This document shows positions 23,775-34,100 of a stretch of DNA of 64,000 nucleotides, piece by piece. Numbering within the stretch: the stretch's first letter is position 1; every line of letters starts with the position of its first letter. Source of the DNA: Verrucomicrobiota bacterium (GTDB lineage Bacteria > Verrucomicrobiota > Verrucomicrobiia > Limisphaerales > J093). The position numbers and the translations under genes are program-made. The notes beneath the pieces are model-generated. The model made no database searches. It had not been told where the DNA came from and saw only the letters and a program-made list of their open reading frames with translations. The stretch is from positions 124,001-188,000 of the forward strand of contig JAOSKK010000023.1 of assembly GCA_027493615.1 (NCBI GenBank). Direction: 5' to 3'.

Positions 23775-24579
23775 TCAGGGTTCTTTCGCGAGGACGGGGC
23801 CGCCCAAAGTGTGTTGCTGCAATCGAAGAAGGTCTTCCCGGTCGGCGGGTGACTCGGCCGGCTTCCAGTAACTCGGCCGTGGCGTGAATCGTTTCGGGTG
23901 TTGCCACTTCCAGCGCTCGCCGTGCCCATCCACGAAAGAGAACACCCCGGTCTGCGCGTGGCGGTCCGCGGGCAGGTTCACCCAGCGGCGGTCGGGAGCC
24001 GGCCACACCAGGAAGTGCGCATCATCGATCGAGTCCGCAGCCTCGTCTACGAAGCCGAAGAGCCGGGCCGGGTCGGTCACCGCAGCGAGACGCTCCACAG
24101 TCCGCTGCCGCTCGGCGGTGCGGCCGCCCAGATTGCCGTTCAGGGACACGCTCCGGGTGCGGCGCCGGTTCAGCGGCTGACCGGCGAGCGGGCGGGCAGT
24201 GGACCGGTCCGCCGGGCAGACGTAAAGGGCCACCGCGCGGTTGTAGCCGTATGCGAACCACAGACCTTGCTGGATGGGGCGCGCGTCGCGGTCATGGGGG
24301 GCGTTGCTCAAGCCAATCCAGGAATCGGGTGCGCTCCGCCAGTGTCCCTCGACGAGTTGGGCGCGATTCGGCGGCACGCTCCCCGCGGAAGTCATCGACG
24401 TACAACTGCCAGGCGACTTGAAGCTGCCGGAGGTTGGCGAGGCAGATCGTGCCGCTCGCCTTGGCCCCGGCTCGGCTCGCCGCGGCCAACAGCAACCCCG
24501 CCAGGAGCCCGACGACCGCGAGCACCGCCAGCACCTCGAGCAGGGTGAACGCCCCGGGCGCCGGGCTCTTGAAGTGCAT
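23775..24579 (-). CDS. Type II secretion-like pseudopilin, frameshifted; first gene of the Cys-rich operon
   Basis: The start MHFKSPAPG/AFTLLEVLAVL has the prepilin processing site with Glu at +5 and a long hydrophobic helix, then NLRQLQVAWQLYVDDFRG. Removing one base from the 4-nt run at 24381-24384 joins this to SVPPNRAQLVEGHWRSAPDS, CPADRST and FSFVDGHGERWKWQ of the H-X9-DG type. It is the promoter-proximal gene of the leftward operon and is divergent from the WPFYG-repeat gene across 215 nt. Its presence here may mean surface delivery of the following Cys-rich product, which is speculative. Confidence 0.8.
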
Positions 24580-24794
24580 CCTGGTGATCACGCCCCCAGC
24601 TTCACGCCGAACACTCCCCCGCGACAACGGGAGGTTCCGGCAAGCAAAGACAAAGACGGGCAAGGACCGTCGCGCCCCCGGCAGCGACAGCCCCGCCACA
24701 GCACGGCGGCCGGACCCATGCCCGACGCGTTGCCCCCCCGCGCTTGACCCTCGTCCGGGCCTACTTAGGATGCGGCGCGTTGCGGGGAATACAC

Positions 24795-26323
24795 GTGAAC
24801 CATCCGGTACGCCGCCTCTTGCCCAGCTTGCTGTGGACCGCCCTCATCGTGGGGGCGTCGCCGGGCGTGCCGCCACGGAGCCGGTCTCCGCCGGCTTGCT
24901 CTACCACCAGTTCCCCCTGACCCTCGACCACGGCATCCGCGTCGAAGCCCTGGGTCCGCTGGTGGCCACCGAGACCCGTTGGCCCGAGGACGCCGTGCCG
25001 CCCGGCACAGACCCGCTCGACGCCGAACCGCCGGTCACGCAGATCGCCCGCACGTTCACGCTCGCCCCCTTGTTCAACTGGAACCTCGAGCCCACCGTCG
25101 AGAACGTCTCGTGGGACTTGGCCTATCCGGTCATCACCTACGACCGCTACGGGGGCGAGTACCGGCTGCAGGTCTTCCAAATCCTCAGTTTCTCGGGCGG
25201 CAAGACCCAGGCCCACGCCCAGGGACGGGCCTTCACCCTCGTGCCCTTCTTCTGGTTCCGCCGCTCGGACGAAGATCCGTCGCTCAACTACAGCGCCGTC
25301 TGGCCCTTCTACGGGTATCTGCAGAAGCGGCTGTTCCGCGACGAAACCCGTTTCCTCCTCTGGCCGGCCTGGGTTCAAACCCGCCGGCGCGATGTGGTGA
25401 CGGACAACTACCTCGTACCGATCGTCCACGTCCGACGCGGCGACGGTCTCCAAGGCTGGCAGGTGTGGCCGTTCTACGGCACGGAACACAAGGACCTCAC
25501 CACGCGCACCAACGGCTTCGGCGAGGTCGAGTCGGTGCCCGGCCACGACAAGCGATTCGTCCTCTGGCCCTTCTACGGCCACAACGACCTCGATACTGGA
25601 TCGACGAACCCCATCCAGCAGCGGCTCCTTCTGCCCTTCTACAGCCTGCAGCGGTCCCCGGCCAAAGACCGCGACATCTACGGCTGGCCGTTCGGTGTCA
25701 CGCTCGTCCGCGACCGCGAGCTGGCGTACGACCAGACCTCGTTCCTCTGGCCGGTGTTCACGTTCGCCCATGGCGAAGGCAAGCAAGCCACCCGCGTGTG
25801 GCCCCTCTATGGCACCACCCGCTTCCGGGAATCGCATTCCCGCTTCGTGCTCTGGCCGCTGTACTACCGTAAGGACACGCAGCGCGACCCTCTGGAACGG
25901 CACGTCACCCGCATCGGGTTCTTTCTCTACACCGGCTTCGAAACCAGCAACCACCAGACCGGCACTTCGAGCAAACGCGCGGACCTCTGGCCGTTCTTCA
26001 TCTCGCGGCGGGATATGGCAGGCAACGAGCGCTTCCAGGCCCTGTCCATCTTCAGCCCCCTGCTCGCCGAGAACGTCAGCATCCGGCGGCTGTACGAGCC
26101 GCTCTGGGCGCTGTGGCGCTCCGAACACCACGCCGCCAGCGATACCCGCAGCCAGTCGCTGCTCTGGAACCTCTACCGCCGCGAGACCTCCCCCGAACGC
26201 GCCAAGGTGTCCCTGCTCTTTGGCCTGGTGCAGCACACGGCGGATGCCCAGGGCAAACGCTGGCGCTTCCTCTACCTTCCCACGAAGAAGAAGCCTCGCC
26301 CGGGACCGGCACCGCACTCTTGA
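24795..26323 (+). CDS. Exported WPFYG-repeat protein of unknown function, upstream of mla genes
   Basis: About 510 residues. The GTG at 24795 gives a signal peptide MNHPVRRLLPSLLWTALIVG. The frame then changes in the GGGGG run at 24851-24855, one G short, and continues VAGRAATEPVSAGLLYHQFP. The rest is a tandem series of about ten to twelve units of 35-50 residues, each with LWPFYG-like cores: VWPFYG twice, LWPFYG, LLPFYS, GWPFGV, LWPVFT, VWPLYG, LWPLYY, LWPFFI. Aromatic strands alternating with charged loops suggest a beta-rich, perhaps outer-membrane fold. It precedes mlaE by 80 nt on the same strand. I know of no assigned function. Confidence 0.75.
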
Positions 26324-26403
26324 CCGGCGGGCCGCGGCATCGAGACTGACTCCCCGACGGGCGCAATGGGCACGACCGACTAACGACCGATTGTTGATGC
26401 GGC

Positions 26404-27150
26404 ATGTTTCAGGACATCGGTGAAATCCTGCTCCTGCTGGGGCGCACCCTGCGGGCGCTGCCGCACACTCTCCGGCAACAACGGAAGGTGTGCGATCAGC
26501 TCTTCGAAATTGGCAACGCAAGCCTGCTGATGGCCTGCGTACTCGCGCTGTTCATCGGCGGCGTGCTCGCCCTTCAGACCGGGCCCACGCTGGCCGAGCG
26601 GGGCCTGCAGAGCTTCATCGGCCAGCTCGTGGGCCTGGCCGTCTGCCGCGAACTTGCCCCCGTGATGATGGCCGTGCTGATCGCCGGCCGCATCGGCTCG
26701 GCCATGGCCGCCGAGATCGGCTCGATGCGCGTCTACCAGGAGATCGATGCCCTGCGGACGATGAACATCAACCCGGTGCATTACCTGGTGCTGCCGCGCC
26801 TGATTGCCATCAGTATCGGGCTGCCGGTGCTCGTGCTCTTCGCGATCCTCGTCGGCTGGATGGGAGGGGCGGTCGTCTCCTTCTTCAATCAGGCGATCGC
26901 GGTCTCGTTTGAGGGCTACTTCAACAGCCTGCGCCAGGGCCTCGAACCGTTGGATGTCGTAAACGGCCTCCTCAAGAGCTTCGTGTTCGCCGTGGTCATC
27001 GGTGTGGTCTCCTGCCATCAGGGCCTCAGCACGATCGGGGGCCCCCGCGGCATCGGGCGCTCGGTCACCAAGGCCGTCGTCAACTCCATCGTCCTCATCC
27101 TGCTCCTGGACTATTTCCTGACGCGGATCCTGATGCACCTGCACACATGA
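26404..27150 (+). CDS. mlaE: Mla-type ABC transporter permease
   Basis: Inner-membrane permease of the MlaFEDB-type lipid transporter, which moves phospholipids between the inner and outer membranes. The 248 residues include the conserved ALQTGPTLAERG-like start, CRELAPVMMAVLIAGRIGSA, AAEIGSMRVYQEIDALRTMN and five helices ending in VNSIVLILLLDYFLT. The ATPase and MCE genes follow with 1-nt spacing and a 4-nt overlap, so all three form an operon. Confidence 0.95.
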   Translation: MFQDIGEILLLLGRTLRALPHTLRQQRKVCDQLFEIGNASLLMACVLALFIGGVLALQTGPTLAERGLQSFIGQLVGLAVCRELAPVMMAVLIAGRIGSAMAAEIGSMRVYQEIDALRTMNINPVHYLVLPRLIAISIGLPVLVLFAILVGWMGGAVVSFFNQAIAVSFEGYFNSLRQGLEPLDVVNGLLKSFVFAVVIGVVSCHQGLSTIGGPRGIGRSVTKAVVNSIVLILLLDYFLTRILMHLHT

Positions 27151-27151
27151 G

Positions 27152-27919
27152 ATGAACGCCCCCGCCTCCCAAGGCATCGGCCTCCAGGTCCGTGACCTGT
27201 GCAAGAGCTACGACGGCCACGCCGTGCTCAAGCACCTCACCTTCGAAGTCCCAGCGGGCGAGATCTTCGTCCTCATGGGCCCAAGCGGCAGCGGCAAGAC
27301 CGTCCTTCTCAAACACCTCATCGGCCTCGAATCCCCTGACACCGGCGACATCCTCGTGGCCGGCCAGCCCGTCAGCGACCCCGGCGTCATGACCCGCTAC
27401 CGGGTCGCCATGGTTTTCCAGTCCGGCGCCCTGCTGAATTCGCTGACCGTCGGCGAGAACGTCGGCCTCTACCTGAGCGAGCACCGTCTCAAGCCGCCCG
27501 CCGAGATCGCCCGCGTGGTCGCCGAGAAGCTCGAACTCCTCGGCCTCAAGGGCACCGCCGACAAGATCCCCGCCGAACTCTCCGGCGGCATGAAGAAGCG
27601 CGTCGCCATCGCCCGCGCCCTGGTCGTCGAACCCCAGTTGATCTTCTACGACGAGCCCACCAGCGAACTCGACCCCCTCATCGCGGTCACCATCGGCCGG
27701 GAGATCCTCAACCTCAACCGACGCCTGCAGGTGACCAGCATCGTCGTCACCCACGACCGCGACCTCGCCTTCGGCATCGCCGACCGCGTGGCCCTGCTGC
27801 ACGAGGGCGAGATCCTCGCCCTGGGCACACCGGACGAGGTCCAGGCCGACCCCAACCCCCTCGTGCAACGCTTTCTCAAAGCCGACTTCCGTTTCACCCC
27901 TGAACCCGCGCTCCCATGA
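27152..27919 (+). CDS. mlaF: Mla-type ABC transporter ATP-binding protein
   Basis: ATPase powering the lipid transporter at the cytoplasmic face. Of 255 residues, Walker A is GPSGSGKT (43-50), the Q-loop glutamine is in VFQSGAL (90), the signature is LSGGM (143-147), Walker B is LIFYDEPT (163-170) and the switch histidine is in VVTHD. The sequence SGALLNSLTVGENV and the LSGGMKKRVAIARAL block are typical of MlaF rather than of general importers. Its start follows the mlaE stop by 1 nt and its stop overlaps mlaD by ATGA. Confidence 0.96.
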   Translation: MNAPASQGIGLQVRDLCKSYDGHAVLKHLTFEVPAGEIFVLMGPSGSGKTVLLKHLIGLESPDTGDILVAGQPVSDPGVMTRYRVAMVFQSGALLNSLTVGENVGLYLSEHRLKPPAEIARVVAEKLELLGLKGTADKIPAELSGGMKKRVAIARALVVEPQLIFYDEPTSELDPLIAVTIGREILNLNRRLQVTSIVVTHDRDLAFGIADRVALLHEGEILALGTPDEVQADPNPLVQRFLKADFRFTPEPALP

Positions 27920-28893
27920 GAAACACCCTCGAAACCCGCCTCGGCATCTTCTTCGCCCTCGCCGTCATCGTCGGGGCCCTCATCCTCGAAACCATCGGCA
28001 GCCTCGACTTCTTCCGCCGCGGCCGCACCGTCAGCGCCCGGTTCGACAACATCCTCGAACTCAAGGTCGGCGACGGGGTCAAGATGGCCGGCAAAGCCAT
28101 CGGCCGCGTCACCGCCATCGAGTTCGCCGATTCGAAGGTGCTCGTCGCGATGAAGATCACCGACCCCACGGCCGTCATCCGCACCGACAGCCGGGCCACG
28201 ATCAAGTTCAGCGGGCTCATGGGCCAGAACTACGTCGCCATCGACTTCGGCCCCGGCAAAGGCGCCCTCATCGACGCGACCGGCACCGAACTCGAGAGCT
28301 ACGCCCAACCGGACCTCAACGTGCTCCTCTCCCGCCTCGAAGGCGCCACCAGCGGCATCCAGAAGCTCACCGACAGCTTCAGCGACTCGAGTCTCAGCGA
28401 CGTTCTCCTGCCCTTCACCGACTTCCTCAACGAGAGCAAGCCGCGCATCCTGAACGTGCTCACCAACGCCGAACGCATCTCCGCCCAGGTGGCCGCCGGC
28501 GAGGGCACCGTGGGCAAGCTCATCTACGAGGACGCCCTCTACAGCGCCGCCCTCAGCACCGTCACCAACCTCAGCGCCACCGCCGATGACGTCCGCCATC
28601 TGGTCAGCGATGCCCAGGCCACGGTCGCCGACGTCCGCGCCGGCAAGGGCACCGTGGGCCGCCTGATGACCGATGAAACCCTCTTCTCCGAGGTCACCGA
28701 GGCTGCCACCAACCTTCGGGAGGTCATGCAGAAGATCAACCGCGGCCAGGGCACGGTGGGCAAGGCGATCAACGACGACACCCTCATCAACAACGCCAAG
28801 CTCACCCTCCAGAAGCTCGACAAAGCCACCGAAGGCCTCGAAGACCAGGGCCCTCTCACCGTCCTCGGCATCCTCGTCAACCCGCTGTTCTGA
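27916..28893 (+). CDS. mlaD: MCE/MlaD-family lipid-binding protein
   Basis: Membrane-anchored MCE protein that forms the periplasmic lipid-binding ring of the transporter. One N-terminal helix (LGIFFALAVIVGALILETIG) is followed by the MCE domain at about 40-120, with VSARFDNILELKVGDGVKMA and GKAIGRVTAIEF. A long helical C-terminal part follows, with GEGTVGKLI, GKGTVGRLM and GQGTVGKAI repeats. At 325 residues it is longer than E. coli MlaD (183) and resembles MCE proteins with long alpha-helical tails that may span the periplasm. No mlaC or mlaB gene follows. Confidence 0.93.
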   Translation: MRNTLETRLGIFFALAVIVGALILETIGSLDFFRRGRTVSARFDNILELKVGDGVKMAGKAIGRVTAIEFADSKVLVAMKITDPTAVIRTDSRATIKFSGLMGQNYVAIDFGPGKGALIDATGTELESYAQPDLNVLLSRLEGATSGIQKLTDSFSDSSLSDVLLPFTDFLNESKPRILNVLTNAERISAQVAAGEGTVGKLIYEDALYSAALSTVTNLSATADDVRHLVSDAQATVADVRAGKGTVGRLMTDETLFSEVTEAATNLREVMQKINRGQGTVGKAINDDTLINNAKLTLQKLDKATEGLEDQGPLTVLGILVNPLF

Positions 28894-29179: not shown

Positions 29180-29548
29180 ATGCGAGACATCACGCGCTTG
29201 TGCGACACGGTTCGTGAGACCGCCTTCGCCATCCACAAGTACCACAAACAAGGGCACCTGGAAAAAGTCTATGAGAACGCCCTTACCCATCGCCTGCGCA
29301 AGCTGGGCCTCGACGTCAAACAGCAGCATCCACTCACGGTTTACGACGAGGATGGCACAGTCATCGGCGAGTACTTCGCCGACCTGTTCGTGGAGGGCCG
29401 GCTGATGAACTTCGGAGCTCCGCGCTTCGAGATCCGCAAGTACGCTTTCTCGCAAGTTACGGACGACCGCCCTCGAGGCGGTCTGCTTTCGAGCCTTCTC
29501 GGCTTCGTATCCTCAGCGCTGGCAGCTTCCGCCCTCTTTCGCGGCTGA
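29180..29548 (+). CDS. GxxExxY protein with internal deletion (probably inactive)
   Basis: Starts like the GxxExxY family (PD-(D/E)XK superfamily): an N-terminal helix, then the hallmark GHLEKVYENAL at about 26-36 and LDVKQQHPLTVYDEDGTVIG EYFADLFVEG. Family members then have about 40 residues with the LIVELK catalytic core and a QLLNYL helix. Here FVEGRL passes directly into MNFGAPRFEIRKY, the family's last strand. The loss is in frame, so it is unlikely to be a homopolymer error. The last 25 residues are hydrophobic tail outside the family. The 286 nt upstream hold no other recognisable gene. Confidence 0.75.
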   Translation: MRDITRLCDTVRETAFAIHKYHKQGHLEKVYENALTHRLRKLGLDVKQQHPLTVYDEDGTVIGEYFADLFVEGRLMNFGAPRFEIRKYAFSQVTDDRPRGGLLSSLLGFVSSALAASALFRG

Positions 29549-29593: not shown

Positions 29594-31080
29594 TCACGCC
29601 AGGATCGGCTTCACGACGTGGGCCTCCGCGTCCACGCCCGTCAGCTTCATGTCCACCCCCTGCCACTTCACCGTGAACCGCCGATGGTCGATGCCCAGCA
29701 GGTGGAGGATCGTCGCGTGCAGATCGCGCACGTGGACCGGATCCTCGACAATGTTGTAGCTGAACTCGTCGGTCTCGCCGTGGATCGTCCCGCCCTTCAC
29801 CCCGCCGCCCGCCAGCCACATCGTGAAGCACCGGGGGTGATGGTCCCGCCCGTAGTTGTCCTTTGACAACCCGCCCTGGCTGTAGATCGTCCGGCCGAAC
29901 TCGCCCCCCACAGGATCAGCGTGTGCTCGAAGAGCCCGCGGGCCTTCAGGTCCTGGATCAGCCCGTACGTGGCCTGGTCAATGTCCTTGCACTGCATCGG
30001 GAGCCGGCCGCCGAGGTTGCCATGGTGATCCCAGTTGTTCAGATACACCTGCACGAACCGCACGCCGCGCTCCACCAACCGCCGCGCCAGGACACAGGTG
30101 TAGGCAAACGTCCCGGGCTTCCGGGCTTCCTCGCCGTAGAGCTCGTACGTTGAAGCGGGCTCGCTTGTCACCTGCGCCAGCTCGGGCACGCTCGACTGCA
30201 TCCGGAACGCCATCTCGAACTGCTGGATCCGTGTGTGCGTCTCGGGATCGCCCACCAGCGCGTAGTTCAGCTCGTTCAGCTCCCGCAACCCGTCGAGCTG
30301 GCGCCGCCGCACCTCGGCCGGCACGCCCGGCGGGTTGTTGATGAACAAGATCGGATCGCCCGTGCTGCGGAACGAGACGCCGGCGTGTTCGCCCGACAGG
30401 AACCCGCTGGACCAGAGCCGCGCGCTGATGGCCTGGATCTGCTCCTTGTTCGTCGGCTCGGCCACCAGCACCACGAACGTCGGCAGATTCGCGTTCATCG
30501 AGCCCAACCCGTAGCTCACCCACGACCCGATGCACGGTCGGCCGCTCACCATGCTCCCGGTCTGCATGTGGCAGATGGCGGGCTCGTGGTTGATCGCCTC
30601 GGTGTGCATCGACCGGATGAACGCCAGGTCGTCCACGCACTTGGCCGTCTGAGGCAACAGCTCGGTGTTCATCCACAGCCCGCACTGCCCGGCCTGGCTG
30701 AACCGGTACTTCGACGGCGCAATCGGAAAACGCTGCTGCCCCGAGGTCATCGTCGTCAGCCGCTGCCCCATCCGCACCGAGTCGGGCAGGTCTTTGTCGT
30801 ACCAGTCCGCCATCACCGGCTTGTAGTCGAACAGGTCCATCTGCGACGGCCCGCCCACCATGTGCAGGTAAATCACGTTCTTCACCTTCGGCGGGAAATG
30901 CGGCAGGACCCGCCCGGCCACCCCGGACGCACTGGCAGGCGGAGCCTCCGCCGTCTCACCCCACAAGCTGAACGTGCTGCTCAGGAGCGATGTCAGCGCC
31001 GCATAGCCCAGGGCGTTCTTCCCCCGGGCGAAGAATTGCCGGCGAGTCTCGTAACGGACGTAATCTTGAAACGGGGACAT
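29594..31080 (-). CDS. DUF1501 family protein, frameshifted
   Basis: Exported sulfatase/phosphatase-fold protein of about 490 residues. The N-terminus has [18 protein letters not shown], a twin-arginine-like signal. [47 protein letters not shown] and [12 protein letters not shown] are DUF1501 hallmarks. The conserved end [12 protein letters not shown]...[21 protein letters not shown] is in another frame; adding one base to the 6-nt run at 29904-29909 joins it to HTLILWG. It lies 34 nt downstream of the PSD1-type gene; the pair is a standard unit in Planctomycetes and Verrucomicrobia. Molecular role not established. Confidence 0.92.
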
Positions 31081-31114: not shown

Positions 31115-34100
31115 CTACTTGCAGAGCACTTCATCCAGGTTCAGCAACTGATTGGCCACCATCGTCAGCGCCGCCAGTCGCGGGGTGGAGACTTCGGCGG
31201 GGGGCGGGGTGAAACCCACGGCCACCAACCGCTCCGCCTCCGACGGTTGCGCGCGGTAAAACGCCTCGAGGTCGGCCAGCGTCCGCGCCACGACCTGACG
31301 TTCCGCGGGCCGCAACGGACGTGCGAGCAGACGCTCCGCCACGTCGTCCAGCGCGGCTTCCGCGGCGCCGTCCGACCGCGCCAGGGCCAGACCGGCCAGA
31401 TGCCGGGCCGCCTCGATGTACTGCGGATCGTTCAAGGTCGCCAGGGCTTGCAGCGGCGTGTTGGTGCGTTCGCGACGCACGGTGCAGACCTCCCGGCTCG
31501 GCGCGTTGAAGATCTCCAGGGCGGGCGGCGGCGCGGCGCGCTTCCAGAACGTGTAGAGACTGCGCCGAAAAAGCCCCTCACCATCGTCGCGCTCGTAATA
31601 GCGGGTGCCGCTCTCCGGCATCGCCACCGCCTCCCACACCCCTTCCGGCTGATAGGGCTTCACGCTCGGACCGCCGACCCGCGGCACCAGCAGCCCGCTC
31701 GCGGCCAGCGCGTAGTCCCGCACCATTTCGGCGTCCATGCGGAAGCGCGGGCCCCGACTCAACAGCCGGTTCTCGGGATCCCGCGCAAGCTTCTCCGGGG
31801 TGCTGACGGCGCTCTGGCGATACGTCGCTGAAGTCACCAGCAGGGTCAGCAGGCGCTTCACATCCCACCCGCCTGCCTGGAACTCCACCGCCAGCCAGTC
31901 GAGCAGCGGCTGGTTCACGGGCGCTTCGCCCATCACGCCGAAGTCATCCGCGGTCTTGACCAGGCCCACGCCAAAGAGTTCCTGCCAAAGCCGGTTCACC
32001 GTGACCCGCGCGGTCAGCGCGTTGTCCGGCGCCACCAGCCAGCGGGCCAGTCCCAGCCGGTTCGTGGGCGCCCCCGCGGGGAACGGATGCAGGGCGGCCG
32101 GCGTCGCCGCCGTCACCTGCTCCCGCGGCTGATCGTACTGACCCCGAAACAGGATGTGAGCCGTCGGAACGGAATCCGGCTTCTCACGCTGGATGTGGGT
32201 GACGGGGCTCCGCCCACGGATCCGGAAGCGTTCGTTTTCCAGGGCCGTCAGTTGACGGCTCGCGCCGCGCCAGCCCTCGTGCTGCGTCACGCGGAAATAG
32301 CGCCGTAACGCTTCGCGGGCGGGGTTGTTCGTGCTGGCAAAATCGACCCGCGACAACACCTCCGCCAACCGCGGCGCCACCGCCAACGCCGCCACTTCCG
32401 CTGGATCCAGGCGGCGCTGATAGAGCCGCACATCCTGCACCGCCACGCCTTCCAGCTTGTCCCCGCGTTCCCGCTGCCCGAGCCGCAAGGGAAAGGGCGA
32501 ATGAATCGAGCCCTCGAGCCGGTCCTGCTCCCGGTTCCCGGCCACTTCAAGCCCGTCCACAAACAGCTTCACCCCGTCGGCGCGGGTCGATCCGTCGTAG
32601 CTGACGGCCACGTGATGCCACCTCCCACGCTCGAGGGACTTCCCCGGCGACCGCACTTTCAACGCCACCGCCGGCCAGCGATGCACCAGATGGATACCGA
32701 AGTGGTCGTCCCGCACAAAGAAGTCCCAGCCCCGATGCCCCTCCGGTTCGCCACCCATCCGCCCCAGGATGGCGCCGCCGCCCTTAAAGTCCTCGGGCAG
32801 GAAAACCCAGGCCGACGCCGAGAAGGGTTCGGTCGCCTGCAAGGCGCCCCGGTCCCCCAAATGAAAGCCGTTGTCCGCAGTCAGGATCGGCGCCGGCCCG
32901 AGCACGCCTCCCCGCCACTCGAGCCGCGTGGGTCCGCCGAACTCAACACGCTGCCGCCCCACCCGCCCCGTCACCCGCGTGCCCTCCCCTTCCGTCAGCG
33001 GCAACCGCAGCACCTCGCCCCCAGACTCAGCCGCGGTGGCAGGCGATGCGGTCGAACCGACCGGACCCAGTTCGTGAACGCCACGTCGGCTGCCTCGGTT
33101 TGAGCCTCGCGCACCCGGCACGCCGCCTCGATCTCCTCCGGCAGGGCCTTCCAGCGCGCGCGGTCCTCGTCGGTCTGCGGCACCACCATGTACAGGTCGC
33201 CCTCCCGCCAGTTCCGGTCGAACCCGGTCTGCTGCGTGTTTCGATAAAACGCCGCGAGCGAGTAAAAATCCTTCGTCGTGAATGGATCGAACTTGTGGTC
33301 GTGACAGGCACCGCAGTTCGTCGTCAGCCCGAGAAAGACCCAGCCGGTGGTGGTCACCCGGTCGTTCGCGTAGTTGGCCAGGTTCTCCTCCTCGATGGTC
33401 CCGCCTTCGTTGGTGGTCATGTTGCACCGCTGAAAGCCCGTGGCGACCCTCTGGTCATCCGTGGGGTTGTCGAGGAGATCCCCCGCGATCTGCTCCACCA
33501 CGAACTGGTCGAAGGGTTGGTTCCGGTTGAAGGCCCGGATCACCCAGTCCCGGTACGGCCACATCTCGCGGTAGTTGTCGAAATGCAGTCCGTGGGTGTC
33601 CGCGTAGCGCGCGGCATCGAGCCAGTACCGGGCGCGGTGCTCGCCGTAGTGGGGCGAGGCCAGCAACGCCTGCACGTAGCGCTCGTAGGCGTCAGCCGCG
33701 GGATCCTCGAGAAACCGCTGCAACATCTCCGGCGCCGGCGGCAGCCCTCGTGAGGTCCAACGCCAACCGGCGGGCGAGCGCGCGACGATCCGCCTCCGCT
33801 GCGGGCGTGAGGCCCTTCGCTTCGAGTCCGGCGAGGATGAACGCGTCCACCGGATTGCGCACCCACTCGGCGTCGCGAGGGGCCGGGGATCCGGGCGCGT
33901 GGGCTTCACGAAAGCCCAGTGTCCCTGCCAGGAGCGCCGGCCAGGATCCACTGCTCGATCAACCGCTTCTGCTCGGGCTCGAGCTTCTTGTGGGACTCCG
34001 GAGGCGGCATCAGGTCGTCCGGGTCCTCGGTCACGATGCGCTTCCAGAGCGCGCTGCGCGACGGATCGCCGGGCATCACGGTGGCCGGGCGACGGGCGGT

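Follow-up and report, generated by a model that had tools for sequence, protein, structure and literature searches.

In a window of 64,000 nucleotides (nt), the whole stretch of DNA analysed here (contig JAOSKK010000023.1, positions 124,001 to 188,000, of a Verrucomicrobiota bacterium of the order Limisphaerales), we found that four consecutive genes on the + strand at 24795-28893 encode an exported W-P repeat protein followed by a transporter of the MlaEFD type, in the order WPF-mlaE-mlaF-mlaD. WPF is the name used here for the repeat protein, which has no database name. Matches to PF02405, PF00005 and PF02470 in consecutive genes assign the operon to the MlaEFD / MCE transport systems. The gene coordinates and these Pfam matches bear out the original prediction that an exported protein with aromatic repeats lies upstream of mlaE-mlaF-mlaD on the same strand, the gap between the WPF stop (26323) and the mlaE start (26404) being 80 nt. 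Membership of WPF in the MlaEFD system is well supported by gene order and co-occurrence. We consider the chances about even that the verrucomicrobial MlaEFD (MCE) lipid transporter has in WPF a dedicated fourth component, namely a periplasmic beta-ribbon which docks or feeds the MlaD needle. The features of the operon are:

24795..26323, + strand: gene of the exported repeat protein WPF, with the signal peptide read from GTG 24795 and the mature body, 24872-26323, read one frame on
25127..25993, + strand: central part of the array of WP repeats (mature residues 86-374), in which 77 homologues share 13 invariant prolines, each in a link of predicted strands
26404..27150, + strand: mlaE permease (PF02405, 4.5e-73)
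27152..27919, + strand: mlaF-like ABC ATPase (PF00005, 2e-33)
27916..28893, + strand: mlaD-like MCE protein of 325 residues (PF02470, 1.2e-17) with N-terminal segment, MCE domain, long tail and hydrophobic end
28849..28890, + strand: hydrophobic C-terminal tail of MlaD; an equivalent end is conserved in other classes of the phylum
24851..24855, + strand: run of five G, apparent 1-nt frameshift site; six G in the same-genus relative

Recurrent linkage to mlaE had been proposed as a supporting check for the original prediction, and such linkage was strongly evident. Within the order we searched 146 genomes, the own genome included and many of them fragmented, and counted as cognate MlaE only matches with E <= 5.5e-87. 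WPF was found in 132 and cognate MlaE in 128 of these genomes; both were present in 126, WPF only in six, MlaE only in two and neither in 12 (Fisher p 1.3e-11, a value that ignores kinship). WPF and cognate MlaE are lost together in the order. Three of the six genomes with WPF only carry it at a contig start and one holds a 162-nt fragment, and both genomes with MlaE only are 57% complete. WPF lies directly upstream of MlaE on the same strand in 113 of the 126 genomes that have both, with a median distance of 57 nt between the matched stretches.

Across the phylum sample the WPF profile matched 160 of 387 genomes. Adjacency in the class and the phylum was scored for the best-listed WPF stretch of each genome, among the matches listed, and these counts omit the own genome and one genome of the same order. 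In the class outside the order all 34 genomes with WPF also have MlaE, and the two genes are adjacent in 33; in the 34th (G510, locus L042) WPF runs into the start of mlaE near a contig end. The MlaE beside WPF in the class reaches E 2e-105 or better where it is whole, and seven class genomes with a weaker MlaE only (E ~1e-56 to 1e-58) have no WPF among the matches listed. In the other classes 106 genomes have a listed WPF, 85 of them together with a listed MlaE, and the genes are adjacent in 71 of these 85. Eighteen listed MlaE genomes of these classes are without WPF among the matches listed, some of which have a lower-ranked WPF. The order WPF-mlaE-mlaF-mlaD was present in 20 of 20 fetched other-class loci; these were selected loci, and 19 came from the adjacent set. 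Adjacency holds even at a sequence identity of only 21-26%.

The own genome holds a single copy of WPF, and the gene is usually single-copy across the phylum. The own genome has three more MlaE-like sites, two of them with an MCE domain, and the ~12 kb around each site contained no WPF; WPF accompanies one MlaE type only. The MCE-domain loci without WPF lie on contig C38 at 451511-451777 and on contig C36 at 219672-219914 of this genome (G000; loci L091 and L092), and at the C38 locus the MlaE and ATPase matches fall in a single open frame.

WPF had no match in Pfam, NCBIfam or PDB sequences, and the PDB sequence search retrieved no relative of known structure. By these sequence searches WPF defines a protein family absent from Pfam and NCBIfam. 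Its named relatives are Verrucomicrobia metagenome-assembled genomes (MAGs), the closest being a 'Verrucomicrobiales' MAG with 93% identity. The pattern [WLFYV]P[FLVIA][YFWGVI] occurs 13 times in WPF, whereas 5000 shuffles gave 1.1 on average and 7 at most, and WP[FLVA] occurs nine times compared with 0.44 on average and 4 at most; the repeats are beyond chance. Across 77 aligned homologues, with 21-93% identity to the window protein, 13 prolines are invariant and mostly spaced by 17-22 residues or about double. The residues from -4 to +2 around the conserved prolines are hydrophobic, with an aromatic residue directly before the proline (-1) in 82% and at +2 in 62%; charged residues are most frequent ~6 to 9 positions away in either direction. 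Signal-like N-termini were seen in nearly all homologues that were read, followed in the order by the motif (G)PLYxxFxLTLxxGxRTExxGPL. The WPF alignment (A4) omits L049, L050, L051 and L057, which have overlong or odd N-termini, as well as L001, L006, L036, L040 and L041, which are copies of, or close to, rows already included.

Neither MlaA (PF04333) nor MlaC (PF05494) was matched in the window protein or the 77 homologues (Pfam, E 0.1). NCBIfam model NF047486 (LA_1737 family) matched two homologues weakly, L042 (1.7e-6; L042:1435-2892) and L067 (0.01; L067:1432-2799), with a best score of 28.1 bits against a curated cut-off of 60. The same model gave no match at 0.1 in the other 75 of the 77 members, nor any in 141 class genomes or 14 control genomes. 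The LA_1737 family presumably originates from Leptospira, judging from its name, and the weak matches may hint at a WPF-type repeat in another diderm phylum. A literature search on LA_1737 returned unrelated papers only. Spread of WPF by plasmids was considered and rejected, since neither the window protein nor L042 had a match in 72,556 plasmid records.

AlphaFold2 predicted the structure of WPF from 33 sequences with a pLDDT of 85.6 and a pTM of 0.66, and from 77 homologues with a pLDDT of 92.4 and a pTM of 0.78, the five models agreeing (91.5-92.4). The latter model consists of 45 short antiparallel strands with a mean length of six residues. All 16 conserved prolines that were checked sit in links between strands, and each of the 13 invariant ones marks such a link beside aromatic residues. 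The top structural match was the CPAP G-box (Z 11.8, root-mean-square deviation (rmsd) 5.6, 148 of 154 residues), followed by matches to radial-spoke and Morn1 proteins (Z 9.6-10.8). We take the matched radial-spoke chains to be MORN proteins. As to a MORN-type sheet, the match to 6t6q (Z 10.4, rmsd 5.3, 169 residues) is a likeness of shape that may or may not reflect homology. Further matches comprised OspA (Z 10.0) and the belt of ApoB100 (first model Z 10.0, second model Z 8.1). For the short sheet matches the Foldseek E values are weak (0.02-0.03 for CPAP and Morn1) at a probability of 0.99-1.00. The best-matched part comprises residues 285-478, the N-terminal half being less tested. LptA, TamB and VPS13-type families did not feature in the structural match lists, and a likeness to these is conceivable. 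The predicted fold comes closest to single-layer sheets that stand free, such as those of the CPAP G-box, MORN proteins and OspA, and is not clearly a membrane barrel. A soluble enzyme was rejected as the identity of WPF on account of the missing family match and the all-beta repeat model; the enzyme fold that would have spoken against the original prediction is not predicted. The barrel or bridge fold expected there fared differently in its two parts: the six-residue strands and the lower scores of barrels tell against a barrel, and an elongated, bridge-like shape fits better.

Like the predicted WPF, MORN proteins and CPAP G-box (TCP10) domains form a single-layer antiparallel sheet of short hairpins. 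The matched MORN examples are eukaryotic, however, and no MORN sequence signature was detected among the 77 WPF members (Pfam, E 0.1). The MORN signature is based on glycine, and the WPF repeat on W-P.

The MlaD of the window has 325 residues, with an MCE domain at 35-112 and a 213-residue tail. As had been noted before, this tail is long and carries repeated GTVG motifs, three in number (residues 197, 245 and 279). It ends in a short hydrophobic segment. Of 23 MlaD rows retrieved from the searched loci, one is truncated by the end of its locus and the others end alike, with the consensus RETSPxxxFxSxxFGAF in other classes. This conserved hydrophobic end may be a docking or anchoring point, either to WPF or to the outer membrane. 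The MlaD sequence gives no evidence of a C-terminal barrel.

Searches for MlaA (PF04333) and MlaC (PF05494) gave no match in the own genome, which is 80.8% complete; the same searches matched in E. coli and Caulobacter. The earlier statement that mlaA and mlaC are missing agrees with this result. In the available excerpts of their paper, Grasekamp et al. (2023, PMC10665443) describe MlaDEF as widespread and MlaABC as mostly proteobacterial. The absence of MlaA and MlaC is general outside Proteobacteria (PMC10665443), and therefore does not by itself show a replacement by WPF. WPF could nevertheless take their place. The own genome also contains matches to LptD and TamB, in keeping with a cell that bears lipopolysaccharide and has further lipid routes.

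WPF would be exported by the Sec route and would form a long single-layer antiparallel beta-ribbon of ~22 hairpins, with repeated W-P-[FL]-[YF] turns along one edge and polar turns along the opposite edge. Its place would be the periplasm, on the side of the MlaD hexamer that faces the outer membrane, where it would either pass phospholipids along the aromatic edge or dock the MlaD needle. A handling of lipid by WPF is conceivable, and what we infer beyond membership in the system comprises contact with MlaD, lipid binding, the position in the envelope and the direction of transport. Modest support may come from the MORN analogy, as the MORN ribbon of TbMORN1 was reported to interact with individual phospholipids but not with vesicles (excerpted text of PMC7725318). 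Of the proposal that WPF is an outer-membrane or periplasmic Mla partner, the partnership is favoured by the recurrent linkage and the outer-membrane barrel is disfavoured, while a role in lipid flow would be conjecture.

Several observations weigh against a dedicated fourth component. WPF and MlaE are not adjacent in 13 of the 126 order genomes with both; in four of these (G008, G019, G025 and G043) one of the genes is near a contig end, and the other nine show no obvious contig break and look real, with 0.58 Mb between the genes on one contig of G109. In the other classes the genes are apart in 14 of the 85 genomes, and 21 genomes have WPF without a listed MlaE at the cut-off used, although in one of these (G441) WPF proved to be adjacent to MlaE once the locus was fetched. 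A few WPF homologues have lipoprotein-like signals as judged by eye (L010, L013, L073, L076 and L086), and anchoring may therefore differ. The length of MlaD itself suffices for it to cross much of the periplasm, and therefore a second bridge may not be needed. The structural matches share shape, not sequence (3-12% identity, rmsd 5-9), and CPAP and OspA are not known to carry lipids. Moreover, the authors of the MORN study concluded that MORN repeats are protein-protein modules (same excerpt of PMC7725318).

A bolder form of the proposal is that WPF is a new intermembrane lipid conduit, in which a single-layer ribbon of ~45 strands holds acyl chains on its continuous edge of W-P-F-Y turns and carries phospholipids to or from the MlaD hexamer. 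We regard this as possible if somewhat doubtful. The ribbon would measure ~20 nm if flat and would so be able to cross the periplasm, the model not separating flat, curled and rolled forms. Such a conduit would be of another kind than the MCE tunnel, the Lpt jelly-roll bridge or the TamB/AsmA groove, and in Verrucomicrobiota it would be the general solution.

Alternatively, WPF might be a structural collar or adaptor which stabilises or positions the MlaD hexamer at the outer membrane and carries no lipid, in the manner of PqiC with PqiB. The same WPF-mlaE linkage speaks for this reading, the conserved C-terminal end of MlaD could serve as the docking point, and the protein-protein function concluded for MORN repeats (PMC7725318) would suit it. 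Besides, PqiC was described as a lipoprotein of the outer membrane by which the Pqi MCE needle is tethered (available portion of PMC10897342). However, the invariant W, P, F and Y residues form a row that is unusually hydrophobic for a pure scaffold surface, and we hold this explanation to be rather unlikely.

Distinctly unlikely in our view is that MlaD has in WPF a beta-barrel partner in the outer membrane, comparable to the barrel domain of Veillonella MlaD or to plant TGD4, with ~22 long strands kinked at W-P, forming a pore or lipid gate. WPF contains recurring polar-hydrophobic-polar stretches of ~17 residues, each centred on one W-P, its hydrophobicity shows an autocorrelation at 17-22 residues, and an export signal as well as an aromatic final residue in some homologues would be in line with a barrel, as would the fact that LptD and FimD match much of the model (Z 6-8.5). 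However, the confident model splits every such stretch at the proline into strands averaging six residues, and near the motif both faces bear clustered hydrophobic residues, without alternation. Single-layer sheets reach Z 10-12 compared with Z 5.7-8.5 and rmsd up to 17 for LptD, porins and ushers (FimD), and the few homologues that look like lipoproteins by eye also speak against a barrel.

That the WPF-mla order is ancestral, with no function in common, and WPF an unrelated envelope protein, as the separated genes in 13 of 126 and 14 of 85 genomes might suggest, is highly improbable, since a neutral arrangement is not expected to persist across classes, adjacency is kept between sequences only 21-26% identical, separated WPF and MlaE genes are both still retained, and both are missing in 12 of the 146 order genomes compared with eight in which only one is present.

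As a proposed fourth component of MlaEFD, WPF can be compared with several known systems. The E. coli Mla system (MlaFEDB with MlaC and MlaA) shares MlaE, the ATPase and the MCE protein, whereas in our case the MlaA and MlaC families were not found, MlaD is longer and WPF is added. Chloroplast TGD1/2/3 with TGD4 combine the MlaE/ATPase/MCE set with a separate outer-envelope partner, as proposed for WPF; TGD4 is a beta-barrel, unlike the predicted WPF ribbon. LetB is placed with PqiABC among the MCE systems. PqiABC / LetAB share an MCE needle and an outer-membrane-side partner, PqiC, which is an octameric lipoprotein (PMC10897342, as excerpted), whereas WPF is a predicted long beta-ribbon and the inner-membrane part in our operon is an ABC transporter. 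The minimal MlaEFD of Veillonella parvula resembles our system in its mlaE-mlaF-mlaD operon, the long MlaD and the lack of MlaA and MlaC (PMC10665443, excerpts). There, however, an outer-membrane barrel is fused to MlaD, while here a separate repeat protein is encoded first. In the same excerpts a barrel on MlaD is given for ~10% of sequences, none of them from the Planctomycetes-Verrucomicrobia-Chlamydiae (PVC) group.

Most two-membrane bacteria have MlaEFD without MlaA and MlaC, which raises the question of how their transporter reaches the outer membrane. Grasekamp et al. ask whether non-homologous proteins replace the missing Mla parts, and a WPF-like partner is not mentioned in their discussion of these parts as far as the excerpts of PMC10665443 extend. 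WPF fits this gap: it is a concrete candidate present phylum-wide, it is encoded in the MlaEFD operon, and its fold is predicted with confidence and is unusual. In Verrucomicrobiota it may supply the lacking connection between MlaEFD and the outer membrane, and it makes the question of this link directly testable. Literature searches on WPF motifs returned unrelated matches only, and those on verrucomicrobial MlaE/MCE and on MCE gene neighbourhoods yielded, judged by titles, no title pointing to a WPF-like partner.

In the window's copy of WPF the signal peptide (GTG 24795) and the body (from ~24872) are in different reading frames, because the run at 24851-24855 counts five G, against six in the same-genus relative by DNA alignment. 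WPF relatives have their signal-like N-termini in frame with the body. The ratio of nonsynonymous to synonymous substitutions (dN/dS) against the same-genus relative is 0.13 for the WPF body, 0.05 for mlaE, 0.09 for mlaF and 0.16 for mlaD, and by this measure the WPF body is under purifying selection. Therefore, the frameshift is most simply read as a likely error of sequencing or assembly, or as a lesion that arose very recently.

Downstream, the operon is adjoined by a gene for a PD-(D/E)XK nuclease-superfamily protein (PF13366) at 29180-29548 on the + strand. A DUF1501 protein is encoded at 29797-31080 on the - strand, which also carries an open frame of 770 residues farther on, at 31115-33427. 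Just upstream of WPF an open frame on the opposite strand (24292-24699, -) contains a stretch that looks prepilin-like by eye, GAFTLLEVLAVLAVVGLL.

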